From Strobilurus pachycystidiatus (Eukaryota > Basidiomycota > Agaricomycetes > Agaricales > Physalacriaceae): a DNA stretch of 64,000 bases. Location of the stretch: assembly GCA_019915135.1 (NCBI GenBank), contig JAHLMK010000010.1:372001-436000 (forward strand), given 5' to 3'. The position numbers and the translations under genes were made by a program. Of this stretch, positions 17,915-61,263 are shown in pieces. Below the pieces are notes generated by a model. That model was not told the DNA's origin and ran no database searches. It saw only the letters and a program-made list of their open reading frames with translations. How positions within the stretch are numbered: the first letter of the stretch is position 1; each line of letters starts with the position of its first letter.

Positions 17915-18190
17915 CGTTCTGTTGAAAAGCGGTAAGCAAGCTGAGATCTTCTAGTCTGATATGGAGATAATTGGACTGACTGGTTCTGCTGAGGCGGGTG
18001 AACGTGGAAGTTTAAGTAGAGGCGGTCAGACACGACTCGTACCATCCTCAATATTTATACTGGCGCCATATTCCATTCGCGGTATTCTTCACGGTCACGT
18101 TACGAGGACAAGTCATACATCTTCTTGGTTTACTAATACCAGGAACAGAGTTACTGTCTGCTACTCACCCTTGAAAGGGTCATGCTTGAT

Positions 18191-30490: not shown

Positions 30491-32416
30491 ATGGTCGCAG
30501 ACTTGATTCGGGACTCCACTGTGGGTCAGTTCATCAACTGGGCATCTGGCGGCAAATACCTTCCCTACGCCGAACAACGACCAGGATTTGAGGTTCCTTC
30601 ACATCTCCTGCTTCCTTCAAAGCGACCTTCTGCACCGACATACGACTCGTCCGATAATGCCACTATATGCGACGATCTAGAGGAGACGCCAAAGGGCGGG
30701 GTGACCCCAAACACGGAGTTGAAACGCGAATCGACCATTGCTGTCGATCCTGAGACCCAGAAGACGATAGACGACTCGACTGGGACGCTGCCGAACCCAT
30801 ACCTCGTGGACTGGTACGGGGATGACGATCCTGATAATCCTCGGTCTGTCTTCTCTACCAGCCTCTCAAGACGTCGACTAATGTAGTCTCTGCAGAAACT
30901 GGTCGCCCACGAAACGCGCTTTCGTTGCTCTCAGCATCTCATTGTTGACATTTACGATGTATATCGGATCTGCCATATACACGCCTTCTATCCCTGGCAT
31001 TATGGAAGAATTCAATGTCTCTCTTGCGCACGCCACACTTGGGCTCACCCTCTACGTGATGGCATACGGGATCGGACCCATGTTCCTCACACCGTTCCAG
31101 GAGATTCCCGCCTTCGGCCGCAATGTCGTATACATCGGCACACTCTTTCTATTCATTATCTTCCAAATACCCATCATCACCGCCACAAACATACAGACAA
31201 TCCTTGCCTTCCGCTTCCTCACAGGTTTCTTCGGGAGCCCTGCCTTGGCGACAGGCGGCGCGTCGATGGCGGATATATACCCGATGCACCAGCTTGCGTA
31301 CGTGATAGGCGTGTGGGCTCTGGGTGCTGTTGCTGGTCCCATTACTGGACCGGTGATTGGCGGCTTCGCAGCGCAGGCTAAAGGGTGGAGGTGGCCGCAG
31401 TATGAGCTGATCTGGATATCGTCATTCGGCTTTGTGCTTCTATCGCTGGTTTTGCCGGAGACATATGGCCCGACTATCTTGCTCAAGCGCGCCAGGCGGC
31501 TGAGGCAGCTGACGGGCAACGAACAGCTGCGGACACAGAGCGAGATTGACTCGGAAGGAGAGTCGCTTAGGCAGGTCCTCGGAGAGGCGTTGTATCGCCC
31601 GTTGGTGCTGTCGCTAGAGCCTGTGCTCATGTTCGCAAATGTATATCTTGGATTCGTTTGTGAGTCAGTTCCTTCTGCTCTAGCTGATTTGAATCTGACG
31701 TGACTCTAGACGCCATCTTCTACCTGTGGTTTGAAGCTTTCCCATTGGTCTTCACCGACATATATCACTTCAACCTCGGAACCAGTGGGCTGCCATATCT
31801 TGGTTTCTTCGTTTCTGGTGCGATAACTGTGGGTTGCAATCTTTCTTACTAGGGAAACCAACGTCTCACTCTCCACAGTATACCGTCTACTGCTTGTACC
31901 AGATGTACCACATCGCACCGCGTTACCAACGGGCTGCCGAGGCAGGAAAGGAAGTTGCGCCGGAGATCCGCCTAGAAATCGGTCTCATGGGTAGCATCTT
32001 TATCCCGACCTCTGTTCTCATATTCGGCTTCGCGTCAAAGGAGAGCATACCCTGGATCGTGCCCGTCATTGGCGCCGCGCTTTACCTCCCAGGGCTCTTC
32101 CTCAACTTCCAGAGCATCCTGATGTATATCACGTCGGCGTACCCAAAGTACGGTGCGGAAGTGCTGGCGGGGAATGATCTGGCGCGGTCGACCATTGCGA
32201 GTGTGTTCCCGCTATTTGGGCATGCATATTTTACAAACTTGGGATTGGGACCTGCGTCTGCGCTTCTGGCAGGCATTTCATTTGGCCTTATGATTGTGTT
32301 CGCGGTGTGTCCCTGTCCAGTCTTCTCTGCTCAATCCGAGTGCTGACAGTGGCTTGTAGGGGATGATCAAGTGGGGACATGTCCTTCGACGGCGCTCGAA
32401 GTATGCACAGGCTTAA
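30491..32416 (+). CDS. MFS multidrug/polyamine-type transporter (DHA1)
   Basis: Major facilitator, drug:H+ antiporter-1 type, similar in plan to the fungal polyamine/fluconazole-resistance transporters (TPO/FLU1). ATG at 30491. A long cytosolic N-terminus ends in NPYLVDWYGDDDPDNPRNWS, the usual signature before TM1, with an intron inside it. Then SIYTPSIPGIMEEF-like and LGLTLYVMAYGIGPMFLTP segments, FRFLTGFFGSPALATGGASMADIYP, VIGVWALGAVAGPITGPVIGGF (antiporter motif C region), and LPETYGPTILLKRARRLR at the central loop. Twelve segments fit. About five exons; the final join GLMIVFAGMIKWGHVLRRRSKYAQA ends in TAA at 32414. Complete, roughly 560 residues. Substrate unknown; it might export the product of the adjacent methyltransferase, but that is speculation. 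Confidence 0.88.
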
Positions 32417-32854
32417 AATTGGAACCTACGCCCGTTTCTTAGAGGAAATTTACGACGCCATTATGAATACAGTAGAAGATTTCACCTTAGACGCAATTTG
32501 GAGATCAAGCTCCGATATAATTATAGATGTCAAGATGTTGGCCAGTGATCGAAGTACCTGTCTTCTCACCACATCGCCAGTATCCTGATTCCTCATATCA
32601 AGCTATACAGATGTCATCTACTTCTCTTCCGAAGTGTTATCCTTGATTTTCTTTGTAACATGTATACCCTCATTTCGTCGCAATGTATATGACACTTTTG
32701 ATGCTGGATCCGCGGGTGACAGCCAAAATTTCCAGCCATAATAGCTCAGACCACCAACTCTCAACTTTCGTCCTCAAATGCATTGATTTGGCGCACGATC
32801 ACAGAGTCGACGTCGCCAGCACCAACTGGTACTGTACACTGTAGAACCGATCGA
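32417..32854. other. intergenic before the CACTA-like element
   Basis: No gene seen; holds the 3' flank of the transporter gene and the unresolved left boundary of the following transposon. Confidence 0.4.
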
Positions 32855-33975: not shown

Positions 33976-36900
33976 CTAGAACGTCTCGTCATCCATTGTA
34001 CGGGCAAGAGAACCACTTCTATCAATAAGCGCCCACTCATTGCGATCATGAACCCGTCCAATCAAACACTGCAGCGCAATAACATCAACCACATCGCACG
34101 ACCCTCCCAAACGGTCGGAGAAGTGAATGTCCAGTTTCTCCAGCTCGCTGTGGTCATTGAGTGGAGCGTTACGAATGGCGACCATGATCACATCAGACGG
34201 GGCTTTGAGTAAGACTTGCGCTTCGGGAAGAAACCGAAGATGCACGATGCGCTCTAATTGCCCATAGAACTCTGCATCAACCATGATGGGATCACGTCGT
34301 GCAAACCTAGCATTCTTGTCGACCAGCATGGTATACTACGAGGTATCAGTACTGCACTTTCTGACGGATGGTCAGGGTCACTCACACGAACATAGGTAGC
34401 ATCTCGAGTGTCTTCGCCACCCTTTACCATGGTCGAGGATCGGAAAGTGTCCCCTTCGGAAGTGTCGATTCGCCGCAGTCGCCCATACTCTTCAATGAGT
34501 ACATTACCAATGTGTTGGCGTACAACGTTGACTCTGACACCAAATTTGGTGGCCAGCGCAACACACAAGGCGTTCCGAACAAAATCCTCGGGAGGTCTCC
34601 TGGGGGAATGAGGAGGTAGCAAGATACAGCTATCGTCTAAAATCAGCATTAGCATGTGCTATGAATACAAAAGCCCGAAGAACACACATCCAAGGACATG
34701 TACTGCACCAAAGGTGTCCTGATGAGAGCGAGTCTTCTTGCCCAGTGCCAGTTCGTCGTGAAGTCGATACAGAAGCTTGATCTGAGTCAGCTGGGCAGTC
34801 TCAACCACGTAACGGTCCATCGAGCGCCATGGATGACGACGACTACGGATTGCAGGAGAAAGCTTGCCGCAGTATCGCTCCATTGGAAAAGCCCAGTAGC
34901 ACCAGACCGGACCCATCGCAATGATACTGTCTGCAATGTGAAGCAGACCATGAATGGTAACCGGACAGACATTGACACGCGATGGTTCATGTTGATAATA
35001 GAGACTGGAGATGAGTCAGATACAATTCGACAGGATGAGGCGTAGATTCGAGAACTCACGTTTCGTATTTTGTCACCCAGTCAGCGAATCCCGTTCGTAT
35101 TGCCGTAACGTCGTCTTTGGTGAGGCTGAACTGAAGACAAAGGTTGAGAAGAACGACAAGGGAAACAAAGTGATCATGATAGCGCTGATGGCGAAAACGT
35201 CGGCGTAAAAGAACGGGGCCAAGATAGAGGGTCCAGAATGACCACATCTCGGCAGACATATACGAGCGATCCGTTGCGACATCCGGTACACGAACCCCAT
35301 ACGCCGATGGAATGGTAGAGCCAGCTGCAGCCGAACTTTTCCCGACGGCCTCCCAGACTGCTTTCTCTAGCGTATACTCTCCATTTCCCTCGTCAACACC
35401 TTTGAACTCGCCTGTCCACAAGGATACCAAGTTCTTCATCAAATTCTCCCAGATCAAGTGCATGAAGTCATATGGAAATGACACCGGAAACGACAGTGAG
35501 TCTAGTGATGCGAGTACCGGAACTCCCTTGATGCCATATTTCGTAGCCAGCTCTTCTGCGCGGACATTTGTTGGTGACTCCATGACCTCCTTGCCTTGAG
35601 CGATAAACTCCTCGTGAGTGCGTAATGGAAGATCTAATGGGTCGTAGACTGGCACAGGGTCTGTGCCAGCAATGACAGAAGGATGATTGGCGCGATGATG
35701 GGGAACGTAGTGTGTCGTAACGCGAGGCATATCTGGGATACGCAGACCGGTGATAGTGCACATCCGGCATGGGCGATAGCCATTGTGTCCCTTGATATTC
35801 ATCAAGAGAGAGACGGCGGGAATATCGCCAAAGACGACAATGAGGAAGGCGCGAAGAGAGAAGAGGGCTTGGCTGATGTCAGGTGATAAGACATCGAAGG
35901 CACGAACACCAAGAGCGAGCTCGTTCAACTCCTGCACAAGTGGCCACAAAAACGAATCGATATCGTGAGGTTTCTTGGGACCGGGAATAACGCCAAGAGA
36001 GATGATGTTCTCGAGATGAAAGCGGATGTCGGGGGGGAGGTTATAGTTGAAGATGATCAACGGCCAAGCACTCTTCTTGCGCCGCTTATGAGGACAGAAT
36101 CCATCTGTTGAAAGACCCAACGCAACATCACGAATGTCTGCAAAGTAGCGGCGTAGATGTTCGGTACCATGAACGCGGATATTGCGACCACATAAAGTGC
36201 GGTACGCAGTACCATCGAAGATGTCGGCAATCTCACCATCATCCGAAGTGTATGAGCCACGATATTGCATAGAGGTGGCAATGTCCCGGCACGAGGCGAA
36301 GGCCTTCAAACGGGGAATGAGTGGAAGGTATGTGAATTTCTGTCGGGGAGTCTTTCCATCTGCTTGATAGCGTGCCTCCTTGCAGTACGGACATGACTTA
36401 AGTGTCGCATATACGCCAGTGTAACAGCAGCAGGATCGTGGACAACAGTCAAAGAACTGCGGTTTGAAACCAGACAGGAAGGCAACACGTGAACGAACAC
36501 GGTGAAGAGTGGGGATTTCGGGATGATCACTATCGGATGGAGGAGGATTCACAAAGGGTAATTCGGCAAAGGCGCGGTCCGTGAGATGGTTGCGAACTTT
36601 GAAGGCAAAGGCCCGGCAGATAGTATGGTCCAGGTCGGAAAGTTTATCGGCTAATGTTACTATCAGTTTCATCCAAGGATATCCACAGCTGGATTACGCA
36701 CCAATTTCACTAACGAGCTTTTCATACTCTGCACCTAGGCGATCCAAGGCGTTGAGTTCCCCCATCTGGCGTTCAAGAGCGTCAAAGTCGAATGCAGCCC
36801 AGTTGAACTCCTCCTCCTCCTCCTCGTCTTCTCTGTATGCACCATTGTCTCCATCCTCTTCGTCTTCTTCATCAGAGCTATCCTCAACCTGGAAGCAACC

Positions 36901-40166: not shown

Positions 40167-40589
40167 ATGTTCAACTCAACATGCATCTCCTCCGATCCTG
40201 ACATCTCTGGCACGGGTGTCCGCATCGCCACCTATATCCAGAACCTACTCAGCTTTGTCCCCGCCTTGTGGGCTATTGCGGACGGAGAAGTCTCCCAGTA
40301 CGAATTGGAGTCCGTCGAAGACCAGTCGGTCACCATCCTCATTACAGCGTTCGCCATCCTAATCTCCGCCATATTCGAGGCGAAGACACTTGGTTTGTCC
40401 AGCTATCACGCGAGCATCATACTTCATATGAGCTGGATGAACAACACAAACACGTTCATCTGGTTCGTTCTCTACATGCACTACGAAGGCCAACGGGACG
40501 TAAAGCGCCCCATCGAACCCAAGTGGTCAGCATGGGGACACCGCCTTGGTGAGAGCTTGCGCCACACCGAGTCCGACTGCCTTCCCTAG
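40167..40589 (+). pseudogene. truncated membrane-protein gene (unknown family)
   Basis: ATG at 40167 opens MFNSTCISSDPDISGTGVRIA, followed by TYIQNLLSFVPALWAIADGE, YELESVEDQSVTILITAFAI and LGLSSYHASIILHMSWMNNTNTFIWFVLYMHYEGQR. This is the N-terminal part of an Agaricomycete multi-span membrane protein family of unknown function, which normally continues with further membrane segments. Here the frame ends after about 140 residues at 40589, and the following sequence (a CCGA satellite) holds no plausible continuation. It is probably a truncated gene, though a short functional product cannot be excluded. Confidence 0.6.
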
Positions 40590-40671
40590 GACATCCCACC
40601 GTGCGCTCGAGCCTCCACTGATTGACTAGCTAGTCGGCAAATACCCTCAGACATGTGGTACGACACGCATA

Positions 40672-40860
40672 TGCCAGCCGACCGCCACCGACCGACCTTG
40701 CCCACCGACCGACCCCGACCGACCTTGCCCACCGACTGACATTCCGCCACGACCGACCGACCAACATTCCGCCACGACCGACTTTGCCCAATGCCCACCG
40801 ACCGACCTTGCACCGACTGAGCTTGCCGACCGACCGACCGACCGACCGACCGACTGACTC
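40672..40860. repeat. CCGA-type microsatellite/minisatellite
   Basis: Repeats of the 4-mer ACCG/CCGA interspersed with CTTGCCC blocks (for example cgaccttgcccaccgaccg), ending in a pure run of about seven CCGA units near 40,830-40,855. All ORFs over it are repeat artefacts. Confidence 0.85.
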
Positions 40861-41544
40861 TTGACAACCCGAAACTGCCCTTGACGACCGAGTACCTGGA
40901 CGATCGACGACGGCCTGCCAACACTGCAACGATATACGAACCGCAAATCCTTGCAATTAAGGCCCCGCAAGCTCCGAGTCCCCCAAAGACATTCTCACCC
41001 TCTCATGTACGTGTGTATGCTTTTTCATATGTATCCCTTGTTAATCTCACTCTCCTCATTCTAGTGCGCTCGTTCACAATCTCCACGTCCGGACTCCATC
41101 GCATCCTGGTTGCTTGACGTGTCGCACGCTAGCAGGGCGGCGGTGAACTTTTGTGAAGAGGAGGTGAGCGGGAGGCAGAGGATGTGACGGCGGCATCGTG
41201 ATATAATTAGACATTCATCTGTATCGTCCCATACCTTGTTATACATTTGATTCTCTCTACTTTCTTTCGTGTTGCTGCGATACCCCAGAGCAAATGCCAA
41301 ATGATAAAATGCTTCATCATCTGTTATTGAGCCTGATATGATGCTGTCGTCAGCTATAGTCACTCAGAATCCTTATAATGGCTGTAGACTTTATACCAGA
41401 CTGTAGATATTTATGCTCCAGGGAAGACCTATACAATGTGACTATAGTCGATGGTATAAGGCTGATACGTTATTACAGTGATTATACGAGACTCCAGTAG
41501 ATTATGATCGACTACCGGACTTTCCCAGATTTGCTGATGGATTA
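40861..41544. other. intergenic, AT-rich
   Basis: No gene supported. The part from about 41,340 is AT-rich with TATAGTC/GACTATA-like motifs and leads into the NmrA gene fragment. Confidence 0.4.
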
Positions 41545-41851
41545 TCCCAGGGTACGTCCGTCAGACTGAGCGAAGTGACTGTCCTCTTACCATCCCAAGT
41601 AGCTTCCGAACGAGGAGATAGAGAAGATGATGAACGGTACTGATCTGGGACCGAAAATCCTTGCCAAGTACATGAGCAGTCTGTACATTCGTGGAGACAA
41701 CAGGCTCGAGAAAGCCATCTCGAGAGGCGCGTTGAATGCCAGAGAGTTGTACCCGGACGTTCCAGTTGTTACGCTAGAGCAAGGGGCAAAGGAATTTTAT
41801 GCAAGCCCACCAGTACCGGAGTACGACCTTACAGACATGGGAATACCGTAG
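41545..41851 (+). pseudogene. 3' fragment of an NmrA-like reductase gene
   Basis: Corresponds to the last coding part of the intact NmrA-like gene 1.7 kb downstream, including the end of the penultimate exon (DYPR), an intron with GTACGT donor and the final exon (SSLYIRGDNRLEKAISRGALNARELYPDVPVV). The final frame is open to the normal stop. The upstream three quarters of the gene are absent. The two copies are clearly diverged (for example YMSSLYIRGDNRLEKA against YMNSIYIRGDNTLEKA), so this is an older partial duplicate. Confidence 0.75.
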
Positions 41852-42444
41852 ATGCTTCTGTGAAATTCATATACGGTTGTCAGAATGGTCTCAGCTCGGT
41901 TGAAATTGTTCTAGAGGAAACGCAAAGTGGTAGTGACATTCGTAGAGAAATCATTCACCTTTCCTAGTACTCTATATTAATCGATGCGGGCCAGTGGTCT
42001 ATTTCAAATTTGTCATAGTAGGCAACGACGCGATGTCGAATTGTTACATCAAGACTCTTTTTTGAGGTAGGACGTCCTGTAGGCTCGCTGGACCGCCAGT
42101 GGGGAATCTTCGACTCATACGACATTCCGCAAATCCAGTCTTAGTGTCGATGTCTGCAATGCGACCGACTTCTGCCCTCTGGCTATCCGACTTCGGTCTG
42201 GCTTGCCTAGGATGATAAACGTTGACTGTCTCATCCGCAGCACAAATACATATCTCAACTCACTGATTCCTCTTCACACATGATAATGACAGCTCCAATC
42301 CAATCGCACAGTCATTCCCCGACGGAAATCGGGAAAGCGTTCTCCGATGTCCGGAAACATGAAATTACTCAGCGCTGAATAATTCTGAAATAGCGTTAAA
42401 TACCTAGAGAGTGTGATCTGAAGAAAAGTTATTCACAAGAAAAG
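41852..42444. other. intergenic, NmrA gene promoter
   Basis: No gene seen between the fragment and the intact NmrA-like gene. Confidence 0.45.
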
Positions 42445-43530
42445 ATGTCGACAAAGCCTCTGGTCTTACTCGTCGGCGGTGCAGGTCAGACCGGTCGTGT
42501 TATAACCAAAACCCTGCTAGAAAGTGGCCAGTTCGTACGTGCATTTACGCGTCCTCAATCGCGGAGCTTATATTTTCGACAGCGCGTCGCCATCCTCGTT
42601 CGCGCCCAGTCAGTCAACAAGCCAGTAGTCAAGGACCTGGTAGCGGCTGGTGCTGATGTCCGCATTGGCGATGTCTCCGAGACGGCGGACAAGATCGAAG
42701 CGTTTCTGCAAGGCGTCGACGTCTTGCTTTCGCTAGTGCTGGCGTGGATTGACCAGAAGCCCCTCATTCAAGCAGCGAAAAAGGTCGGAGTGGGGCGCTT
42801 CATTCCTTCCGACTTTGGCCCGACTGCACCCAGAGGCGTTATGGCTATGCACGACTTAGTGAGGACGATCTCCTTCTTCATGAAAGCAACTTCATTGATG
42901 CGGCCTGTTGCCTACTAGAAACTCGATATCAGGGAGTACGTTAAAGAGGTTGGCGTGCCGTATACCTTTATCGAAGTCGGCTGGTGGTTGCAGCTGATGT
43001 ACCCGTACCCGCACTCGAAAGAGACGCCGTATCCGAAGGTGTACGCCGGCAATCGTCGAGTCAAGATCTTGACTACGTCCGTGGCGTCTATTGCCCGCTT
43101 CGTGGTCAAAATTATTGCGGATCCTAGAACGCTTAATCAGACCGTTGTGACTTCCGATGTCGAGTCTACCGTGGGTGAGGTATGGTCCATCGCGGAGAAG
43201 GTTTCTGGGGAAGACTTTTCCGACTATCCGAGGGTACGTGTTGTCTACATGGACTGTGGCTTTTAAATTTACCATCGGTAACAGGTTCCAGACGACGTGA
43301 TTGAGGAGCAAACAAGGAGTGACAGTGCTGCAGTGAAGATTTACGCACAATACATGAACAGCATTTATATTCGTGGAGATAATACACTGGAGAAGGCGGT
43401 CGCTAAGGGTGCGCTGGATGCTCGCAAGTTGTATCCTGATGTGCCGGTAGTGACGATAGAGGAAGGTGCGAAGGAATTTTACGCGAATCCCACGGCTCCA
43501 GAAGCCGACCTCTCTAATGTAAAGATATAA
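42445..43530 (+). CDS. NmrA-like/isoflavone reductase-type protein
   Basis: NAD(P)-binding atypical short-chain dehydrogenase. ATG at 42445; LVLLVGGAGQTGRVITKTLL is the GxxGxxG cofactor site. Intron 1 (about 42535-42579) joins ESGQF to RVAILVRAQSVNKP; further on are GADVRIGDVSE, VDVLLSLVLAWIDQKPLIQAAKKVGVGRFIPSDFGPTAPRG, then intron 2 to KLDIREYVKEVGVPYTFIEVGWWLQ, and VESTVGEVWSIAEKVSGEDF. The last exon ends SNVKI at 43530. About 310 residues, complete. Such proteins either reduce phenylpropanoid-like compounds or act as redox-sensing regulators. It lies 110 bp from, and convergent with, the interrupted MED10 gene. Confidence 0.86.
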
Positions 43531-43925
43531 GACCACCATAGAGTAGAGCATCCCAACGAAGGGCACATTTGTTTTGTCCAGTGAAAGAGCCCGATAGTGA
43601 CGACTCAGAGCGTAGAAACAGCAAACGAGGACAGCGGTATAGCCTAATGCCCGTTGGAGAATATGCCGATGGTGGTAGGTTCCTCCTTGATAGTTTTAGG
43701 TTTGAGAATGTCCTCTAGATCTGGCCAATTTTGGACAAGGGCTTCATTGAGGTAAGTGCGATAAGTCTAGGCACGAATGAGCCACGAAAATACATGAAAC
43801 ATCTGAATAAACGAACGTCCAAAGCGTTGATCTTGCCGTTCATAAACTGATTCTCGGTGGCAGCGCGCTGTATGCGGTCGCGCGTCAGCTGCATGGGATT
43901 ACGGCCATTGTCAATTTCCGCCAGT

Positions 43926-43933
43926 ACTTCGAC
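43926..43933. repeat. target-site duplication, left
   Basis: ACTTCGAC immediately before the hAT 5' end, identical to 48028-48035. Confidence 0.95.
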
Positions 43934-44251
43934 CAGTGTTGTCCCAGCCAGTGGCCGTGTCCCAAAGCCAGAGATCAAATTGACTGGCTAGACACTGACG
44001 GTCAGAAAGCCAGAAAGCTGGCTTAGCTTTTCCCACGCGGGCGGATAGACGGTCCGCAATGGCCCGGCGGCGTGAACTGGTGATGGGATCAGCGGTCCCC
44101 GTTCGTTCACATCTTGCTCTTATCCGCTCATCAGCAGCAGTCGCCACAATCCCTTTTCATCCATCTTATTGTCTTTGACTCTCTCCAATCTAACACATGT
44201 ACTTATTTACCGGCTAATGGCTCGTCAATAAACCGGATTTTCACCTATAAA

Positions 44252-47200
44252 ATGCGCCCCTCAACCAGCTCTAATATCATCACTCCAATGGCCCACTTAC
44301 CTGGTTCAAATCGTGGCCCAATCCGAGAGTATTTCCTTGATCATCCAAATCTGCTTACCAAGGGCTCTGATGCGCTACAGAGTACAAAGCCAAGGCTCTA
44401 CTGTAAAAAGTGCATCGAAGTAGATATCACGGAGCTTCAAGCTGACGATGAGCGTGCCGTTAAAGAGAGTCGACGAACCACAGTCCGAGACCGAAACGAG
44501 GCCATCCTTCATCGTGCGTGTCAGATTTCCTGTCATCATTCACATCTCAGACCGTGTTTAGTGTTTAGTATAGAGGGGACTGCCACCACTCGGCGATGGA
44601 CTCGGGGTGAGACCGACACCCTGGTCAATCATGTCAAGCGCTGCTCTCTCTGGTCCGCTGCCGAGAAGAAGCGCGCTGAGGACGACACCAATTCTTGGCG
44701 GCATACCAAAACTCCCCAGCGTCCGAGTCATGCTCGAACTGTATCCATTGCTTCTGACGCGTCGCGTCCTGGTACACTTCAGTTCGGAGGTGCTGCCGGC
44801 TCCTCACAGGACATCTACTCGCTTAACTCCCCCATATTCCCTCCTTCCTTCTCTCCTTGGCCGCAATCCTCCTCACGCTCTCACTCTCGTCCACCCAGCA
44901 CTGTTGCAAACTCGCCAGCTGCTGGCTCTATCCTTCTTCCCTCCGACTCAGTCTCATCTATCGGCTCTGCTGATGACGATACTCGTAGCAGAACAGGGTC
45001 CACATCCAAGCGCCGTCGTATCTCGCGCTCGCAGTCTTTTCAACACCTTTCCATCCTTCCATCTTGGTCTTCTACCGATCAAGTCGAGTTTGACGAGCTC
45101 ATTGCTACCATCACAGCATCTGCAGGCTTTTCGTTGTCATGGATTGAGAACCCAGAAGTCCTTCGGTTCTTCGAGAGATTCATTCCGGAGGCCAACGTTC
45201 CAAGTCGCAAGGTCCTGACGACGCGTCTTATACCCACCGTTCTTGAGAAGAAGCGCACTAAGGTATGTCAGACTCATACTCACTATACTAATGTTACGAC
45301 TGAGATGTACTCTAGCTACGCGAGGCTCTTCGCGGGCTCTTTGCAACTTTGGTCTGTGACGGTTGGTCTGGCATCAACTTCCATCATCTCCTTGCTTTCA
45401 TGGTCGTTGTCGATCAGCAGCTTCACAACATTCGCATTGTCGACACCACTGATGAGCGTAAGACTACGGACGAGCTCATGAAGCATATGCTTGCTGTGAT
45501 CGACGAGCTTGGAACAAAGTGGGGTATCACTCTGGTAGCCTTTACCTCCGACGCCTCGGGAGAATCACGCAAGGCCCGCAAGCAACTTGTTCGCGCTCGG
45601 CCATGGCTTGTTGCTCCCGATTGCTATGCCCATCAGGTACGTGTATCCCGCTTGACAGTGATAGATATCTAACCAGATTCATACATGCAGATAAACCTCA
45701 TGGTCGGGGACTACTTCAAAAGAGCTAGCCCAAACTTGAAGAGGTACACCAAGTGGGCCACAGCTCTCATTACTTGGCTTCGGAGCAAGACATTCGTTCT
45801 CGCTTTGCTTCGAGCTGAGCAGGTGGCTTACGGCCTTCGCGTTCTTGCCGTAATCCGTGCGGTCTTGACGCGCTGGACTGCTCACTACCTTGCTTTTCGT
45901 CGCCTACTTGAGATCAGACAGTCACTCGAGTTCATGGTATCACACGACGCGGTTCGCGGGGCGAGGAACTCTCAGTTGATCACTGGGGATAAGAAGGCAA
46001 AGGCAAAGGCTCGTGTCATGGTCAGCATCATACAGAATGCCGCCTTTTGGCACTCTATCACACGGTTAGCATTCTTCAATCATATGCTGATCACGTCAAC
46101 TCAAAATCACACTTACAGAATCAAGAATCATCTGGAACCTCTGGCGATTAGTGCCAACGTCACCCAGTCAGCATTTTGCCGCCTTGACGAGGTTCTTCTT
46201 ACCTTCGGTTATCTATACCATCACTACTTCAACATTCTCGACGACGCAGACCCAGAAGATGTCATTGCCAAGCGAACCCTCCTTGCTACCATCGAGACGC
46301 GTTGGTCTAAATGCGAACAAGAGGTCATGATTGCGGCTGTTCTTCTGAACCCCTTCTTGAAGACCACCCCATTCCAATCCACTACCTCCAATCAACTTCG
46401 CTTCCTTGCTCCCGCCGCCATGCTTGCCTTATTTCGCCGCCTGTATGTGCGCTTTTTCCGCGAGCAACCCGACGATGTTGCACTCTACGAGAACTTGCAC
46501 GACTATCGCCAGAATACTGGCCTGTTTGGGTCCGTTAGTGGTTATGTGTCAATTCTTGCTAAGGTGGCAGAGAAGGAGGGAACGAAGCTGGATCCTCGTG
46601 CAGTCTACAAGGGTCTCTTCGATGCTAGTAGCGGCGCCACTGTGCCTCCGTTGTTCCGTCTCGCGAACCACATCTTCTCCATCTGTGCCAATTCTGCATC
46701 GTGCGAGCGTCTATTCAGCATCATGGGGAACACCCTGACAAAGCTTCGTAATCGCCTTGGTACCAAGACGCTGGCCAACTTAGCGGACCTCAAGATGATT
46801 ATTCGTGATGAACATGTCGCTCACGAAGAGTCAAAGGATCGACTTAAGCGACACTTCGGTCGCTCCAGAGAGCTTCCGCGGCCTGCGCCTACTATCCCAA
46901 AAATCGATGACCTACCTATCCGCGACGCGGATACTTCCTCAACCCATTCCACTGCGGCTTCGAGCAGCTTCTTCACAGCATCGCAGATTGAGACCGCACC
47001 CGCCGCTCTTCCGGACGCTCAAATCGATGCGGATCTCGGCAGTGGCTCAACCGAATTTGACCGCATCGTCAACCAGTTTGAGGACATGGTCGACAAGGAC
47101 GCAGACCAGGAAGCGGATGATGATGATACGATGGATGGCGGATCAGCACTGCCGTCCTCTTTCGGTACAATTGACATTGCTGATCTATTCAATATGTCAG

Positions 47201-47358
47201 CCAGTGCATGGATCAAACAGTACTCAGGTGCAGCGGTCCGTAGTCTCGACGAGGAGCTATCTTTCTATGAGCTTGTTGATTTGGATGCAGACGCAGATTT
47301 AGATGATATGATAGACATTGACATTGACGAGACCGTAGAAGCAGTCCTACACCCGTAA
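44252..47358 (+). CDS. hAT-family transposase
   Basis: DDE-type transposase of the hAT superfamily. The frame is open from 44114; the likely ATG is 44252 (MRPSTSSNIITP). The N-terminal region has a BED-finger-like set (LYCKKC and later LVNHVKRC) with a probable intron near 44,516-44,571, then a Ser-rich disordered stretch with an NLS-like SKRRRIS. The catalytic region has LVCDGWSGINFHHLLAFMVV, ITLVAFTSDASGESRKA and LVAPDCYAHQINLMVGDYF; introns near 45260-45316 and 45637-45690 restore these joins. An intron-like segment 46064-46119 lies inside ITR/IKNHLEP. The C-terminal dimerisation block PLFRLANHIFSICANSASCERLFSIMG is intact (written here in shorter runs: FSICANSASCERLFS, RNRLGTKTL). Ends with an acidic tail at 47358. 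No disabling change seen. Confidence 0.9.
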
Positions 47359-47671
47359 CTACACATCTTCCAAAATCTGATCTAGCTCTTCAACCAACGA
47401 CTGAGTGCCCTTGAGGTGTTCCTTCAAAGCAGCTCGAAACCGTGCACCTGCATCCAAGACTGCGTGAGACGCGTCTATCGCGTCACTGCTCTGCACAAGT
47501 TCCCGTAGATAGATGGTTGTTGCGCTCAATGCATCAAGGAGGCATTGCTGGTGGGCGACAACGGTTTTCAGGTGTGTTGCACCGTCAGAAAGTGAGACGG
47601 TGGGTGCCAGGTCATCGCGCGCTGCGGGTGCCGAATCCGATAATGCACTTTGGGGCGGGACATAACTGAAA
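47359..47671 (-). CDS. antisense accessory ORF within the hAT element
   Basis: Open frame on the opposite strand whose stop codon directly abuts the transposase stop codon. The readable part begins after a good acceptor (CCTCCCGTTTCAG, ending at 47672) with YVPPQSALSDSAP and continues in a helical segment: LKTVVAHQQCLLDALSA, TIYLRELVQSSDAIDASH and LKEHLKGTQSLVEELDQI. Composition is protein-like and coiled-coil prone. There is no ATG in this exon; the upstream exon or exons in 47672-47990 are not resolved. Function unknown; it may be a second element-encoded protein or a chance frame. Confidence 0.4.
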
Positions 47672-48027
47672 CGGGAGGTTGTTTGAGTCAGTGTCAATAT
47701 ATGATGTGGATGGCGCACTCTTCACAGCCAGGGGACGCATAATCTTCTCCTACACGCCAGCGCCCTCCACGGTGTATATGGCACAGGTCTCCGTTACACA
47801 TCGTGATGATGGATTTTCGCGGTTTAGCACGTTGGGACGCGGGAGGAGTTGTCATTGCCGATCACAGCACGAATAAAATGAGCAAGTAACATTGTTTGTA
47901 CTAACAGTTCGACGTGTGTAGTAAAGCCAGTGGGCGTGAGAAAAGCCATGGCCAGAAGATGGCCATAGTCAGTAGCCAACGTGACCTAACCTCGGTCACT
48001 GGCTAGCCAGTGGCCGGCACAACACTG

Positions 48028-48035
48028 ACTTCGAC
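48028..48035. repeat. target-site duplication, right
   Basis: ACTTCGAC immediately after the hAT 3' end; together with 43926-43933 it defines the insertion point in MED10. Confidence 0.95.
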
Positions 48036-48444
48036 TGGGATCATGGTCGGCGTTTGCTGTGATATTTCATCGAGGTGGGCGAGGCGGGTGACGACATCGT
48101 TTCTAGGGCGGAGGTTACGGTATACTACAGACCGAACAGCATACAATACGTACACTTTCGCCCCTACTGGTTTGGTGGGCGGCTGGCCGGGAGGCTGCCC
48201 TGGGTTTCCGCGCTCTTTAGTCGAGTCGTTGATGACTTTGGTGCCGAGCGCGTAGAGGGCATTGGCCAGTTCCAGCAGCTCGCCCTCGAGATCGGCTTGG
48301 ACGCCGACGGGAGGCGGGGATTGGGATGAGCGAGGCGAATCAGGTGCCTGCTGCATGGCCATGATGGTGGTCGATGGTCAAAGTGACGGAGCTTCCTTTT
48401 TCGGCGACAATCTCTTCACCTTTCTTCACCCTTTTACCACCACC

Positions 48445-48789
48445 ATGGCGCCCACAAAAACTGGAAAAGCAGCTGCTGCTGCCACGCCGGAATGTAGAAC
48501 CGCCTTCGGTAAGGACGAAAATCCGTCGTTCGCAAATACAAGCTGACTGGCCATAGAGGTGATAGACATGACACATCCGGCGACAGTCGAGCTTTTTAGA
48601 AGATGGGATCAGAAAGAGGTTGCCTTCATCCAGCTCCTGAGATTCATCCGTATATCAAGCGCAAATCCAGACTCGGTTGTTGTCTCCAAACCGGGGAAGC
48701 ACCATACAATAGTCGGCCACGAAATTACCCCAATCGCAAGCGTAGCCACCCCATCTGTCGACGAGTCAGAGATGCTGATAGACGGTTGA
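48445..48789 (+). CDS. small hypothetical protein, 98 residues
   Basis: Two exons, 48445-48508 and 48557-48789, joined by a 48-nt intron with donor GTAAGG, branch-like GCTGAC and acceptor CATAG. Total 297 nt, an exact multiple of three. The protein opens MAPTKTGKAAAAATPECRTAF and continues EVIDMTHPATVELFRRW, DQKEVAFIQLLRFIRISS, ending SVDESEMLIDG. No family recognised. It is divergent from MED10 with only 82 bp between the two start codons. Confidence 0.5.
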
Positions 48790-49192
48790 AGGCTAGAGGA
48801 CAGTTCGCATCTATCCCTGTAACTCTCGATCCATCACGAGTTCAATGGATGCTAACTGACAAAGACTCTTTCCTTAGGGCTTCCTGTACTATCTATCCCT
48901 GATTATCCTTGTCGTTTGTTTTTCGTTGCCCTTCACTTTTTCATGTACAAGGAGACCGTGGTCATTCGCGTTCCAAGCGAGCCCCACATGTTCTTGCTAC
49001 TATTACGCACATAATAGGAACCAATCCTATTGCGCCCTTACGGGTGTCCAGACAAGGTCCAGAACGTCGGCAAGATGGCTCACAAATATTACCTCCGTGA
49101 ATCTCCTTAAGTTAGGTGCGATTTAAGTTAGATCGAAATGAACGTCAACGACTCCGACTTCACCCTGTACCAGACGTTCATTGCGTCCATTC

Positions 49193-49720
49193 ATGTCTGA
49201 ATCCGCCTCCCAAGTTCTTGTGGTGAGCAGGGTTCTCAACCATAGGTTCCATCATCATCTAACGTCGCTTTGAGGTCGGGGCTGGTCCGTCTGGTTTGGT
49301 TCTTGCGCTGTCTCTCCTCAAAAATGGCATTCCTGTTCGAATTATCGACAAAAACCCAGAACTACGCGTTGGCCAGCGAGGTGCAGGGATAATGGTACGG
49401 TGGCGATCCATTCTATCTGTCGCAGTCTGTCAATTTTTGAATTAGCCACGCTCCATGGAACTCTTCGAGCTTCTGGGTATCGCACCTCCCATTCTTGAGG
49501 TCGCATTTGCAACGCCGAGCGTAAAAACATATGAACTTGAAGCTGGCCTTCATCCCACCGGCACTTTCGAAATGGCACCGTACACCGAGCCGACGGCCGC
49601 TTTTCCCTACGTCCGTTTACGCCTTTCATAATTTTCTATCGCCCCTGACTATCAGGCCGCAGCTCAACATACTTTGCCTTGGCCAAGACCGACTCGAGGC
49701 CATCCTGCGCCATGCTGGAG
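49193..49720 (+). pseudogene. 5' remnant of an FAD monooxygenase (phenol hydroxylase-like)
   Basis: ATG at 49193: MSESASQVLV, a 52-nt intron, then VGAGPSGLVLALSLLKNGIP (FAD-binding GxGxxG), VRIIDKNPELRVGQRGAGIM, an intron, and PRSMELFELLGIAPPILEVA. The sequence continues to FEMAPYTEPTAAFPY and, out of phase, to LGQDRLEAILRHA, which is conserved in this family. After that the frame runs into an Ala/Gly-coding repeat and stops. More than two thirds of the expected enzyme is missing and the last junction cannot be joined in frame, so it is almost certainly a broken gene. Confidence 0.75.
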
Positions 49721-50107
49721 CAGGCACTGGAGCGGCTGGAGGGGGAGGGGGAGGAGCGGCTGCGAGAGGAAGAGCGGCTGCGAGAGGAAGAGCGGCTGCG
49801 AGAAGAGAAGAGGCGGTGGTTGGAGGAGGAGGAGCGCCTGCGGGAAGAGGAGGGAGAGCGCCTGTGGGGACATGAGGGCAAGTGGGTGGAGCTTTGGGAT
49901 GGGCGGCAGCGCCGGCGGAATGCGCAGTTGCAAGAAATGAAGGAGACACTACAGGGGATGGAGAAGGAGCTGCCGGTGTTGGAGGAGGAGCAGCAGCAGG
50001 TGCGGGTGGAGATGCGGCAGCTGAGGGTGAATTTGCAGTCCGTTCCAAGTGCCAGAGTCGTGCGTGCCGCGGGAGGTGTGACAGCAGGTAAAGTAGGAAC
50101 GTTGTAG
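49712..50107 (+). CDS. Glu/Arg-rich coiled-coil ORF
   Basis: ATG at 49712 overlapping the end of the monooxygenase remnant in another frame: MLEQALERLEGEGEE, then repeated RLREEE units (18-nt DNA repeats around 49,757-49,805), then KWVELWDGRQRRRNAQLQEM and EELEEEQQQVRVEMRQL-type coiled coil, ending at 50107. It could be the 3' exon of an unrelated repeated gene joined here by rearrangement. Function unknown; expression doubtful. Confidence 0.4.
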   Translation: MLEQALERLEGEGEERLREEERLREEERLREEKRRWLEEEERLREEEGERLWGHEGKWVELWDGRQRRRNAQLQEMKETLQGMEKELPVLEEEQQQVRVEMRQLRVNLQSVPSARVVRAAGGVTAGKVGTL

Positions 50108-50640
50108 GAACGGCTGGTGCAGCTAAAGCTGGTTAGTTGTGATATCAGGCAACCTGGGGGGACAGTTTGCGCCTCTGTGGCGTAACGGTGCGTAACATCG
50201 ATGTCTGTAAGTGTATAGTAGCGTGCACATCGGGTGAATGTATGGCTTGTCAGTGGTCCTTTCCCGACAGATGAACACCTCGAAAGAAGAATTGTCGATG
50301 CGCACGCAATCTCGTCCCAACCGACTGGCCTGTTCATCCGTTTCCAAGTAAGTACTAACTTCAAAGGGCAACTGCTCTGATAGATTGTCTGAGATTACGG
50401 TTGCCTTAATTTATCTATTCTACGAGGCGTCAAGCTCTTGTAGGTTCAGCTAGCAGTAATTCTTGGTCACCGTCACACTCTGTGAAATGCTGAGCATTGG
50501 ACACCAGCACAATGCCGAACCGTAATGGCACGAGTCGAAAATGTGGAAGGTATCTCGAGACTCGAGAGTCCGACGTCGAACACTGGTCCGTCGAACAGAG
50601 TCTCTCGATTGCCGCAAACCCTAACCCGAGCGAGTACAAC
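50108..50640. other. intergenic
   Basis: A short open stretch near 50,268-50,350 reads HLERRIVDAHAISSQPTGLF before a GTAAGT and might be a stray exon; no gene could be built. Confidence 0.35.
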
Positions 50641-50819
50641 TCTTGAACTGGATCAACCAAAAATTAGCGCTCAGCCCCAGTGTACCCTTTATACTTAACT
50701 TCCATGTCGAAAACGCCGTCTTCACCAATGCTGAAGACGTCGGTCCAGGCTGCGTCTTGCCTTCTCTGCCTCAGGGGAACTCGGGGAGCTCATTCGCGGA
50801 AGAGTGGCAGGTACGAGAC

Positions 50820-51300
50820 AAGCCATTCACGTTTCGACGGCATGACGAAGGGCGCGCAGGTGCGTCTTCATTGTTATATCTAAGATATGTGCGCTGCGCT
50901 GACGATGGAATAGCCAGTGGTTTGGGGCGACGGCACTGGATCAAGGATATCCTGCTCAAAGGCGACTCGTGCATCATCCGGGTCAAATCCAGGGCATTAA
51001 GGACTCGGGGTTGCGCAAGCGTGGAGGTGATGGGTTCGCAAGGAGAGTCTCACGAGCAAACCTGGCTGGGATATGCACGCAAGGTGTGTTGGTCTTGGTC
51101 TTCAATCTATGGGATCCATGTGCTCACTGACACCAGACCGCTCTGCTTGGCTGTCAACGCCGACGAAGGCGAACCAGAGACGTGCAAGGACCGCGGGATC
51201 TTGCTCGGTCATGGGCACAAGCCCATCGAGGGCTGCCTCCCCGCCGGGCGCGCCAGGACTTCTGTCACTACAATGGTCAGCAACACACATCGATCGCCAT
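50820..51300 (+). pseudogene. decayed NDUFV1-like (complex I 51-kDa) sequence
   Basis: Pieces of the NADH-binding subunit of mitochondrial complex I lie in correct order but different frames: HWIKDILLKGDSCIIRV (one frame), IKDSGLRKRGGDGF at 50996 (shifted frame; the family has SGLRGRGGAGFPSGLKW), SLTSKPGWDMHAR (family SFMNKPGW) and LAVNADEGEPETCKDRGIL with IEGCLPAGRA. The family reads VNADEGEPGTCKDRE. At least two frameshifts and several lost Gly residues of the FMN/NADH site make it non-functional. The functional gene must be elsewhere. Confidence 0.75.
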
Positions 51301-51994
51301 CAAGGATGCAATCCTCGCACTGGTTGTCTGCTAACTGTCAAGGCAGACCTGAACGAACAATTTGTTGCGCCACAATACCTGTTCCATGTCAACGATGCCG
51401 CGCCATACGCTCTCCAAAGCTCAGCAGCGAGGTGACGGACTCATTGGGGGGATGGACGGACGAGGTATCGGCGGAGGTTTGCAAACATCTTACACCACTG
51501 GCATACGTACGTGCCTACTGACAAGTTCCGCAGTGATGTGATGGGAGCATATACTTACACAGTCGAGATCAATTCATCGTCGTCATCATCAGTTACTTTT
51601 TGATAAGCTTTTCAACAACGTGTCGTGGTCCAGCTATCATGGACTGAATCTGAGTCTTCCTGGCGCTTTCTGTTGCCCAGATCTCTGCTGCTGGGACCTC
51701 TTCGCGCCCACAGCAACTCTACCTTCCTTCGCGTTGTTCCTCGTCGAGCCAAGTCATGATCAAACAGTGCCAACGCTCGCATATGGAGATGGACCCTGCG
51801 TGAACCTTGACAAACGACTACCCCAATCCGGCGCCTCGTTGAACGCCAAACGGGGACAGACTCGAGCACAAGGATTGTCATTTTTGGAGCGAGGAAGATA
51901 TGACGAGCTCTTTATAAAGCGGAGGTTTTGCATTTGCGTCCCTATCCTTTGCGGTCCCCTCCTTTTCTAGTTTCTGTCCCCGTCGGGATCAGCT
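51301..51994. other. intergenic, receptor promoter
   Basis: Possible further NDUFV1 debris to about 51,520, then the upstream region of the STE3-like receptor. No pheromone-precursor ORF with a CaaX ending found. Confidence 0.4.
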
Positions 51995-53561
51995 ATGGCG
52001 TTTCCACCTAATGAAGCTTTCATGGCTGTCTCGTTCGTGGGGTTTGTGTTGTCTCTCCTGCCTCTGCGATGGCATCTTCAAGGTGGGAAATCTACCGACG
52101 CTGGCTAGGCAATACATCGGGACGATATACTGACATACCTCCAGTTCATAATGTTGGGACATGCGCCTACATGATCTGGGTTGGGATCGGTTGTTTAAAC
52201 CTGTTCATCAACGCAGCGATCTGGAACCACAACGCTATTCTACGCGCTGAATGGTTCTGCGATATCTGTGAGTTCCATGCGCTCCTCCATCGCGGCAATT
52301 TGCTGATATTGCCCCAGCAACCCGAATCACACTCGCAATGACCACCGCCATCCCCATCTGCTCGCTAATCATCAACCGACGTCTGTATTTCATCGCGACC
52401 TCAAACACGGTCATGTCCCCGCATGAAGACGTCTGTCTCTGCCTTCCCCCCCCCCCAGTGTCATGTGGTGCTAAACCCCTCACAGCGTCGGCGTGCAATG
52501 GCCTTCGAACTCGCCATGGCGATCGGCGTTCCCGTTCTATTTGGCATGATCCTCAGTTCGTTTTCTCTCCCGATTTCAAAATGTGAGATGTGCTGACAAC
52601 TTTCAGGTTATATCCCACAGGGCAATCGCTTCAACATCTACGAGAACTGGGGCTGTTTCCCGTCCATCTATAACACATGGGTTAGCCTCTTGATCAGGAA
52701 CGTCCCTCCGATCGCTATCGGTTGTGTCTCTGCAGTGTATTGTGGTATGTGTTCCGACCATATTGCCTATGCACCGTGCTGAACGTAGAAAAACAGTCCT
52801 AACCGTCATCGCATTCAACCGTCGCCGGCGGCAGTTCAACCAAATGCTCTCCCAATACTCTAATCTCAACTCCAACCGATACTTCCGCCTCATGCTCATT
52901 GCCTCCATTGATATCTTGTGTACCATCCCCCTCGCAACATGGGTTCTGATCCTGAACGTTGGCTATCTGCAACCGTGGATTAGCTGGGATAACGTCCATG
53001 CGAGCTTCATGAACGTGTATCAGTTCCCTGCACTGATATGGCAGAACGAGCCTGGGGCATTTGGAATCGAGCTGGAGCGTTGGTTGACACCGCTTAGTGC
53101 CTGGCTCTTCTTCTTCATCTTCGGAGTACATGCCGAGTCAAGGAGGAATTACAGGACGCTTTTGAATTCGCTGGCGAATAAGCTTGGGACGTCGAGCTCG
53201 TTCCTTGCTGGTAGCTCTTCAACGATGCGTTCTTCGACTGGTCAAAGGTTGTATCTCTCGTCACATTCGTTGTGTACTAATCACCACGTCCGTTTGTAGG
53301 TCGACCAACGAACACGTCATGGAGCGCATGCCAGAAAGGCCGAAGGGTTACTCAATCGACTCGTTCGCTGACCCGAGAAAGTCCTTCCCGATCGCTGAGC
53401 CGTTCGACCGATCCGAAGGCTCCTTTAGTGCTGTGGAGAAGGACATCGACGCGCATTCCGACTTTTGGTCGGCGGATGCTTCTCCCAAACGCATCTCTCC
53501 CGAGCCTGTGCCCATCGCTTTGCCGTTCAAGTACAGCAGGAAAGGTCATGACTACGTCTAA
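51995..53561 (+). CDS. STE3-type pheromone receptor (GPCR)
   Basis: Seven-transmembrane lipopeptide-pheromone receptor of the fungal STE3 family, coupling to the mating MAPK pathway at the plasma membrane. ATG at 51995: MAFPPNEAFMAVSFVGFVLSL (TM1). Exon joins give RWHLQVHNVGTCAYMIWVGI, FINAAIWNHNAILRAEWFCD, STRITLAMTTAIPICSLIIN (TM3), RRRAMAFELAMAIGVPVLF, YIPQGNRFNIYENWGCFPSI, WVSLLIRNVPPIAIGCVSAV, RYFRLMLIASIDILCTIPLA and a last helix at LTPLSAWLFFFIFGVHAES. The cytosolic tail is Ser-rich and ends KYSRKGHDYV at 53561. About seven exons; one intron carries a C13-type homopolymer near 52,447. No pheromone precursor or homeodomain mating gene is nearby, so it may be a non-mating receptor-like gene. 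Confidence 0.88.
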
Positions 53562-58060: not shown

Positions 58061-59725
58061 ACAGTCCCGGTCACGACTTCTTTGTGATATATGATTGTAC
58101 CGTAGGATAATGAACGTAGGCGTAAAATCAGATCTGAGCGACGCGAGTGCTGTCTTGGGGTCTGGGTTGAGACTAACATGGGAAGCCAAGCTCAATAAGA
58201 GGAATGTTATAATATCAGCAAGAGGAAGCGCGTGCCCGACGATGTAGATGAAAAGATCCAGCGAGGTCATGGTCAGAGGCAAAAAGGTATTGATGACCCT
58301 GCATCTTGAGTCCAAATTAGGATCGAGAGCGGCTGTAAGTTTCAGCCTCCACTGCTCGTTGACGTGAGACAGCCCAAGAGAATCATTGTGGAAATGGGAA
58401 AGAGTGTTGATTCGACGTCCAACAATATCTACTGCAACCCCGACGTCGTCAAGAGATGGCGCCAGATAGTGCACAGCAAAAAAGGCGGGAACCATTCCCT
58501 CAACAAGAGACACGGGTGGAGGTACTCCTAGAACCAAGCCATCGCTGCGGACAAATCTACCCGCGCCGGAGTACAAGGTGACACACTCGTAAACATACGA
58601 GGCAGTTTGTTAGGACAAGTCCCACGGCTGGCGGAGATGCTTTTCCGAGTCTCGAAAAGAACAGAAAAAGGGTTTGAAGAAGATAGGGTCTATCCCGAGC
58701 ACTGCAACACCGCGACAACGGAGCGTCGTCTGGCCGACCCAGAACGAGGCAGGTATGTTCGACCTGGTCCTCATCGTGTGCAGTGCCCATCGTCGTGCTT
58801 GAGGTCGTCGGGGACGAAAGAAAGAGAATGTCGCAGGGGGTCATCGAAGTGTTGGTGGGAGGAATGCTGATTAAATGGTCGGAAAGGAGCCATTATATAG
58901 CCAAGCAAGTGTTTGCGTATGTTGAAAGTGTCTGAGATCGTCCGTAGAGTTCGGTCAGGCCGATCGACAGCATTTTGCGGCAGAACGATTCGGAGTGGCG
59001 CCAATTATTGGTGTGTTTAATGTTATCAGCAGGCGCTCACCCGATTTGCAGGGCGGGGAGACACAGAGTAGACGGTCAATGGGAAGCAGGCCTATGTCGT
59101 CAGAAATATGGCAGGAAGAGCAGCGCAACAGCCCTGAGGGCGAAAAGGCGTTTTGACATCGGGGTAGGAAGCCAAGCTGGGATGCTCTTACATACCCGAG
59201 TCCTTACAACTTTGGTCTCGTCTATCACTACGGTGTCAATGACTAACTCGACGGCCATTCCTATAGACAATGGCGGCCTCTTTGCGGGTGGAATGGGATC
59301 ATTTTGGAGAGCAGTCAAATCGACAGGAACGGTTGGCTGACGCGGCGAAGAACTGGTGCGTTTGCTCACTGTGCGCTTCAAACAGAGGGACTTACAAACG
59401 ATGAACAAACAGCGCGTTCAGCACACGACACGACACCTTTCTCAACCACCATCTGTTAGTCTCCCCTAGGCAGACTCGATCAAGTTCGCTGGTAACTTGA
59501 TCTGGAACCATCTGTCACTTCTGTTATGTCTTCCCTCGACGAGGAGGCGAATATATCGTCTTACAGATGGATGCGGTCACTAACTGGCATTGACCATCAA
59601 TCAACTCTCAGTGTGTGGTGACGGCACGGTGGGTATTGCGGCAACGCCGTGGGACGCTAAGAACACCGGTGTATTCATTCTCGTTGAACATCCCCGCCAC
59701 TTCTTGAATCTCAACGTCCAACAAC
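58061..59725. other. long gap, possible minus-strand gene
   Basis: A minus-strand frame at 58576-58120 encodes hydrophobic segments (NTFLPLTMTSLDLFIYIVGH, LADIITFLLLSLASHV), and frames at 58790-58610 and 59390-59190 look mildly protein-like (for example PPLSIGMAVELVIDTVVIDE). I could not connect them with consistent splice sites. A small membrane protein is possible but unproven. Confidence 0.3.
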
Positions 59726-61217
59726 ATGGCATCCATAACTACCGTCTGGGGTACTGCTACTACGGAGTACCCACAGGCGCGGGGTCGTCCAGCTCATTGG
59801 GTAAATGACCAAGGAACCGCTTTCAAGAATCCTTGGGCAAGTTGGCGGCCCCACGACTGGCGCGATCAGCTCTATGTGCGTCGCAGTCTTCCAATCGAGC
59901 CTAGCATAACGAATCCTTCACTTCAGATCGTATTCCAGCACTCCAAACAGTGTCCTGTCCCTCCAGATAACATGCACGAACTTCTCCCGGCTCGGAAGCC
60001 GACGCTGGATTTCAGCGCCGACGATGCCTCCATGCTGAAGTCAACCTGGCTGGGACATGCATCATTCTACGTGGAACTTCCTGCTCGTTCTTGTGCCGGG
60101 GAAGTCACGAACCGCGGTGCTCGTGTTCTATTCGATCCTATCTTCAGCGAGCGCTGCTCTCCCATACAATGGGCTGGTTTCAAGCGAATCACTCGTAAGA
60201 TCTTCAGTCGTCGCATCTTGCCAGTAGGGACTGAGTCTCGCTGGTAGCTCCCGCTTGCAAGCTTGAGGGTCTTCCTGAGATAGACGCTGTAGTGATATCT
60301 GTAAGTCGCTCTCTTCCTCGTCTAGATCGCGGCCTAACGCAAGCTCCAGCATGATCACTATGATCAGTAAGTGCTTCTCGTCTTCATAGTGTCACATACT
60401 GGGCTAACATCCGGATAAGTCTCGATACCGAAACAGTTCGTCAACTTATCTCCCTCCCTCGAATTCCGCAATTCTTTGCCCCTCTCGGAAATGGGGGGCT
60501 CTTACGGTCCATGGGTGTTCCTGTCGATCACTGTCACATCCTGGACTGGTGGGACAGCCGAAGGATCGAATTGAAGCTTCCCGCTGGCGACACCATCCTC
60601 GTAGACATAACCTGCACCCCCAGCCAGCACAACGTGGGACGAAACTTCATGGATCGTTTCCGCCATTCCAAATCCCTCTGGGCGTCATGGGTTGTCCAAG
60701 AAGTCACGGAAGCGCCGCCCGGGCCCATCAAACCAAAGTCGGTCTTCTTCGCAGGCGATACTGGGTACCGCTCCGTTCTTGATGGTCAAGATGAGGACAC
60801 GGTCCCCGTTTGTGAGGCGTTCAAGCAGATTGGCGAACGTTTTGGGGAGATCGATCTCGCTCTGATTCCTATTGGGTACGTCGAACTGTCTGCGAAGTAC
60901 TACAATCGATCTCTAAACAACCTTGCAATAGTGCCTACATGCCTCGCAGGTACATGTCCCCGATACATTGCTCCCCAGAGGATGCGGTGCTACTATTCAA
61001 AGACATCGGGGCGAAACATGGAGTGGGAATGCATTGGGGGTCAGTATCGGTGCTCGCACGACTCGGGTTGTATCGCTGACTAAGTTTCAGGACGTTCGTG
61101 CTCACTACCGAGCCCGTCATGGACCCTCCCGCGAGATTGAAAAAGGCGTGTGAGAGGTTTGGAATTGAAGATGGCAGGTTTGTATGCACTGACATTGGTG
61201 AAACGAGGCTTTACTGA
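59726..61217 (+). CDS. NAPE-PLD-like metallo-beta-lactamase-fold phosphodiesterase
   Basis: Related to N-acyl-phosphatidylethanolamine phospholipase D (mammalian NAPE-PLD, yeast FMP30), zinc hydrolases releasing N-acylethanolamines. ATG at 59726. Landmarks: WVNDQGTAFKNPWASWR, STWLGHASFYVEL, RGARVLFDPIFSERCSPIQW, GLPEIDAVVISHDHYDHLD (the HxHxDH zinc motif), FFAPLGNGGLLRSMGV, TCTPSQHNVGRNFMDR, KSVFFAGDTGYRSV, IDLALIPIGAYMPRRYMSP and KHGVGMHWGTFVLTTEPV (metal-binding His). The zinc motif is spread over three exons, the middle one a 17-nt microexon at 60350-60366. Seven exons; last codons GETRLY, TGA at 61215. All expected metal ligands are present. Convergent with the MYND gene, 46 bp between stops. 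Confidence 0.88.
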
Positions 61218-61263
61218 AGTGGTAAGCTGATAGGTTAGAAGATGACTGCGTGTGTGTGTACTC

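Follow-up and report, generated by a model that had tools for sequence, protein, structure and literature searches.

The window analyzed here is a stretch of 64,000 nucleotides (C10:372001-436000) of a genome assembly of 51,781,917 bases in 61 contigs, and within it a copy of the Mediator gene MED10 on the minus strand is split by a 4,094-bp insertion. The N-terminal part of the gene lies at 48028..48362 (exon 1, 48362-48154; intron, 48153-48103; start of exon 2, 48102-48028) and the C-terminal part at 43644..43925 (rest of exon 2, 43925-43817; intron, 43816-43767; exon 3, 43766-43644). The insertion (43934..48027, plus strand) falls in codon 95, splits that codon, and is flanked by two copies of the 8-bp target site ACTTCGAC (43926..43933 and 48028..48035), read directly from the sequence and identical at 8 of 8 positions. 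Its terminal inverted repeats (left, CAGTGTTGTCCCAGCCAGTGGC, 43934..43955, plus strand; right, 48006..48027, minus strand) agree at 19 of 22 bp, with a perfect run of nine (CAGTGTTGT) at the start. Among the best 25 of the 86 inverted pairs found between 43800 and 48100, the element ends were listed first, with 86% complementarity; three pairs were longer (23-25 nt) and only 75-78% complementary. When the flanks were joined with a single target copy, an open frame of 171 residues plus a stop codon resulted, interrupted by two introns (51 and 50 bp). Reading of the sequence bore out every coordinate in the preliminary description of this locus, which had reported an intact-looking hAT element inside a MED10 exon, inverted ends, a flawless 8-bp duplication, and a gene of 172 codons and two introns after excision.

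Within the element, a transposase gene model of 949 amino acids (44288..47358, plus strand) was predicted from five exons (44288-44513, 44574-45262, 45316-45636, 45691-46064, and 46119-47358), the introns of which were picked by eye. The model contains no internal stop codon, in agreement with the earlier impression that the element is free of decay, and retention of the first intron gives a product of 969 amino acids that is open too, such that intron 1 may be unspliced. The predicted protein carries a DUF659 domain and the hAT C-terminal dimerization domain (PF05699, 30.7 bits versus a cut-off of 21.4). At least 52 homologues were recovered from 7,994 scored candidates, and those bearing organism names all belong to the Agaricomycetes. 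Residues D320, D384, and E733 are presumably the acidic catalytic positions expected from Hermes. They are present in the predicted protein and mostly conserved: with gaps included in the denominator, D320 is an aspartate in 41 of the 52 sequences recovered (9 gaps), D384 is kept in 49 of 52 (3 gaps), and E733 is kept in 34 of 52 (10 gaps and 4 lysines). A 119-amino-acid open frame with a GTG start lies on the minus strand (47359..47718), its stop codon directly adjoining the transposase stop codon in a tail-to-tail arrangement, and it had no family match above the cut-off. We conclude that the element is a DUF659-type hAT transposon.

The element at 43934-48027 was the only full-length copy found in a search of the assembly in which the best candidates were scored, and copy counts are lower bounds because only those candidates were scored. 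At least two short relatives keep the element ends only, at about 76% identity on the left and 85-86% on the right. The 733-bp relative on contig C25 has the 8-bp duplication ATACAGAG on both sides; a clean 8-bp flanking pair was looked for around the 727-bp relative on C9, and none was found. More distant hAT relatives, 31-35% identical in protein sequence and each interrupted by an in-frame stop, were noted on C26, C13, C5, and C4. Those on C4 (stretch L026, about 920-4479), at C13:1.218 Mb, and at C5:2.821 Mb are transposase pieces of a different hAT-like family, the stop being TAG in each. Elsewhere in the window, an open frame on the minus strand (35056-36693) matches Transposase_21 (tnp2) at 83.1 bits and represents another DNA transposon or a remnant of one.

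Pfam Med10 matches were found at two places in the assembly, one being the window and the other C5:1768351-1768530. The gene on C5 is uninterrupted and encodes 171 residues plus a stop codon, with introns of 50 and 50 bp; its match to the Pfam profile of 119 positions spans 6-115 and scores 77.3 bits. A PDB search with its product returned 13 sequences at E up to 1, of which the 5 with E below 1e-6 were all MED10 and the other 8 had E above 0.5. Among the 120 homologues listed of 321 found, the best came from Hymenopellis radicata (78% identity), followed by Armillaria and Desarmillaria (65-67%), a ranking that probably places the organism among the Agaricales, within or close to the Physalacriaceae. 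In the window, the C-terminal half alone belongs to Pfam Med10 (36.5 bits versus a cut-off of 23.3), the frame containing the N-terminal half had no Pfam hit with E≤0.1, and the joined flanks match the C5 gene in all but 8 codons; the split gene had been correctly named as MED10. The C5 gene holds a single ACTTCGAC and no hAT element, such that the full-length element is represented by one filled and one empty site in paralogous copies, and the 8-bp target is present twice in the window and once on C5.

An uninterrupted MED10 outside the window was what the preliminary description had proposed to look for, and its presence on C5 contradicts the notion that the only MED10 of the host is disrupted. 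Disruption of a sole copy of an essential gene was thereby ruled out. According to a published study (PMC4222720), MED10/NUT2 is one of the orthologs of essential Saccharomyces cerevisiae genes that were put to the test in Candida albicans, and its repression blocked growth there. Because repression blocks growth, it is the C5 gene that reconciles the MED10 lesion with life.

The similarity between the two MED10 copies extends well beyond the gene. About 4.46 kb of C5 (C5:1766059-1770519) is duplicated in the window on the plus strand at 41540..49712 (41540-43933 plus 48028-49712), and the duplicate is interrupted by the hAT element. Identity to C5 is 97.6% over 41540-43933, 98.1% over 48028-48489, and 99.0% over 48489-49712; altogether, 59 substitutions, 37 of them transitions, and 6 gaps were counted over 4,066 aligned sites (1.45%). 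The segment contains the 3′ end of one NmrA-like gene, a second NmrA-like gene in full, MED10, TMA16, and the start of a flavin adenine dinucleotide (FAD) monooxygenase gene. The whole NmrA-like gene (42445..43530, plus strand; 324 codons plus a stop, with Pfam NmrA matched by exon 1 of the C5 version) is open in both copies, which differ by 8 nonsynonymous and 5 synonymous changes. Next to MED10, 379 bp of TMA16 that are present on C5 are missing from the window copy (junction at 48488..48489), and the Pfam Tma16 domain was found on C5 only. At the right edge, the FAD monooxygenase gene breaks off at window position 49712 and runs on in C5, where the FAD-binding domain is matched above the cut-off by two more frames, the second of which also matches a C-terminal dimerization domain just below the cut-off for that domain (23.9 versus 24.9); the C5 sequence past this edge is single copy in the assembly. 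The left edge falls inside an NmrA-like gene that continues on C5, and since the C5 version of that gene has in-frame stops itself and may be decayed, it is at the right edge alone that a gene apparently whole on C5 is clearly truncated.

A left-truncated repeat (40572..41540, plus strand) with relatives on C4, C9, and C14 adjoins the left edge of the duplicate, its right terminus (...TTTCCCAGATTTGCTGATG) meeting that edge to within a base or two. Members of this family reach about 1.5 kb and have inverted ends CATCAGCAAATCTGGGAAA (stretches L026, L027, and L028), and the window copy is without its left part. The C4 copy of the different hAT-like family mentioned above sits between two parts of this repeat. 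No consistent target duplication was seen in the copies of the repeat that were read, and for that reason the repeat is not claimed as the maker of the duplication. Both introns and the intergenic DNA are kept in the window copy, which ruled out a processed, RNA-derived pseudogene or retrocopy. The copy carries disabling lesions, namely, a 102-residue frame, truncated edges, and the TMA16 deletion. We conclude that the window MED10 is, as judged from these lesions, a predicted unprocessed pseudogene, a spare copy in decay.

The eight codons that differ between the two MED10 copies comprise four synonymous and four nonsynonymous changes (T42K, E114Q, V157I, and N164I, in the direction from C5 to the window), and the introns differ slightly. 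Hymenopellis radicata agrees with C5 at all four nonsynonymous sites, placing the changes on the window branch. T42 and E114, both changed in the window copy, are invariant in all 120 homologues that were listed; the residues at 157 and 164 are highly variable in the same set. With 25 of the 171 positions invariant, the probability that at least two of four random changes would hit them is 0.10. Selection on the window copy may have been relaxed, but the numbers (4:4 in MED10, 8:5 in the NmrA-like gene, probability 0.10) are too small for proof and make the argument a weak one.

A disrupted gene and an intact one at 97.6-99.0% identity could also be the two alleles of a dikaryon, with the window derived from one nucleus and the C5 copy from the other as a separate contig, and identity in this range is within what alleles can show. 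Alleles should share flanks, and here near-identity stops sharply at both edges. The C5 copy sits 1.77 Mb into a contig of 2.99 Mb, among different neighbors, and when 40 kb of C5 was compared with the window, just two weaker matches, between NmrA-like paralogues (65% and 72%), were found outside the segment. Since nothing stronger joins these 40 kb to the window apart from the segment itself, the window MED10 is a paralogous copy and not the other allele of a dikaryon. A search of the assembly with window positions 41200-43933 and 48028-51500 likewise gave C5 as the only near-identical second place, the other matches being the repeat to the left of 41541, at 89-92%, and either paralogues or short stretches, at 65-78%. 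Moreover, Med31 has one locus in the assembly, and no near-identical second copy was found there for window positions 28500-32500 (best long match 75%, over an MFS-transporter gene, and one 46-bp stretch at 83%) or 59500-63500 (sole further match 67 bp at 88%). With a single Med31 locus and two 4-kb stretches that lack a near-identical copy, the assembly seems not to contain two haplotypes and looks haploid here. We consider the allelic reading very unlikely. The preliminary description had offered a paralogue, a second allele, or splicing rescue as ways out of an essential gene being lost; the paralogue stands, in the form of the C5 gene, and a need for either of the other two is not supported.

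Rescue by splicing would demand that the element be removed from the window transcript so that this copy still makes MED10. Within the stretch enumerated, 38 GT-AG pairs keep the MED10 C terminus in frame, and one of them, removing 4,099 nt (donor GTGTTG, acceptor TCGAAG), leaves MED10 whole with one extra residue. Such an intron would be 4.1 kb long, compared with 50-51 bp for those of MED10, and its donor is poor; without splicing, the open frame closes after 102 residues, of which MED10 contributes 95 and the element 7. With an uninterrupted MED10 on C5, there is no need of rescue, and we regard it as extremely improbable. An artefact of assembly at the junctions, or a chimeric contig, is equally hard to credit: although the locus was judged from assembled sequence, a perfect 8-bp duplication, matching inverted ends, and an independent empty site are together the mark of transposition and not of a mis-join, and the window copy differs from C5 at 59 sites. 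The direction of copying might instead be reversed, with the C10 copy ancestral, the C5 copy its duplicate, and the host already reliant on the newer copy when the element struck the older one. Direction rests on the edges and on an outgroup protein rather than on synteny in related genomes, which leaves some room for this reading; it is nevertheless the C10 copy that is cut inside genes, lacks TMA16 coding sequence, and bears the derived MED10 residues, and we think reversal most doubtful. There is also a slim chance that element-driven or read-through transcripts of the dead copy, some of them antisense to MED10, give rise to small RNAs or a truncated MED10 of 102 residues that tune the C5 gene.

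We hold it to be very probable that about 4.46 kb of C5 was duplicated on C10, that the spare MED10 was hit by a DUF659-type hAT element, and that the MED10 of the cell comes from C5; the NmrA-like gene of the copy, which has stayed open, counts against this reading. In the history that we infer, a DNA-level duplication would have copied the segment, introns included, from C5 to C10, where the redundant copy, truncated on either side, would have shed 379 bp of TMA16 and gained its MED10 changes. The hAT element would have inserted by cut-and-paste chemistry in codon 95 of the spare gene, duplicating 8 bp, and MED10 would be supplied by the C5 gene, which is presumably expressed and sufficient. 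These steps are given in a likely order, within which the empty C5 site places the insertion after the duplication; precise excision from C5 is an unlikely alternative. The age of the insertion is bounded only by the duplication because there is one element with one target duplication. As for the claim of a very recent jump, the insertion postdates a duplication that now shows 59 differences between its copies in 4,066 aligned sites, and a very recent date is compatible with this bound.

The surroundings of the duplicate include a gene for an STE3-type pheromone receptor (about 52147-53299; Pfam STE3, 107.4 bits for one exon), which starts about 2.4 kb to the right of it. Further STE3-like loci are present on C9, C4, and C7, and because of these the gene need not mark a mating-type locus. 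The window also contains a second recent duplication, in which inverted copies of about 2 kb (16138-18190 and 25578-27629) are 96% identical and carry Methyltransf_16-like frames.

No earlier report of this MED10 insertion was found in a literature search, none of the papers listed there containing the term Med10. We conclude that the insertion is real and of an ordinary sort: a transposon of a familiar kind sits in a redundant, decaying copy of a gene. That an essential gene seems to be lost is itself unremarkable because an uninterrupted MED10 exists on C5, and the seeming paradox of a missing Mediator subunit is removed. The locus provides a clean pair of empty and filled sites for one full-length hAT element in an Agaricales-like genome, a marker of past activity. 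It further indicates that the remainder of the assembly should be consulted before an interrupted housekeeping gene in a single window is taken as a sign of a hidden allele.

Compared with other transposon-hit duplicate genes of the unprocessed pseudogene kind, the window copy shows the same truncated neighbors, deletion, and insertion, and there is no difference in kind. At the protein level, the best homologue found for the transposase comes from Armillaria ostoyae (P0001), a hAT-type protein of 1,084 amino acids (versus 949 here) that covers 99% of the query with 42% identity and also has the hAT C-terminal domain. When the 557-amino-acid last open frame alone was used as the query, Hermes-type transposases were the sole PDB matches (four distinct sequences at E≤1: 6dww and 8edg, and 4d1q and 2bw3, which are labeled "transposase" only). 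The match to Hermes (E of 4.7e-5) spans about 50 residues in the stretch holding the conserved E-R pair, consistent with a distant relative. The nearest parallel in anatomy is MarorhAT-10 of Marasmius oreades, a 3,396-bp hAT element with DUF659 and hAT C-terminal domains that was reportedly caught moving (PMC9674265) together with relatives of 597-631 bp that have the same ends and lack the internal section. MarorhAT-10 was observed to move, whereas the element described here is known from its sequence alone, and the two families are likened by anatomy. They share the DUF659/hAT architecture and the accompaniment of short relatives with common ends, at 4,094 bp and 727-733 bp, respectively, in the genome studied here.
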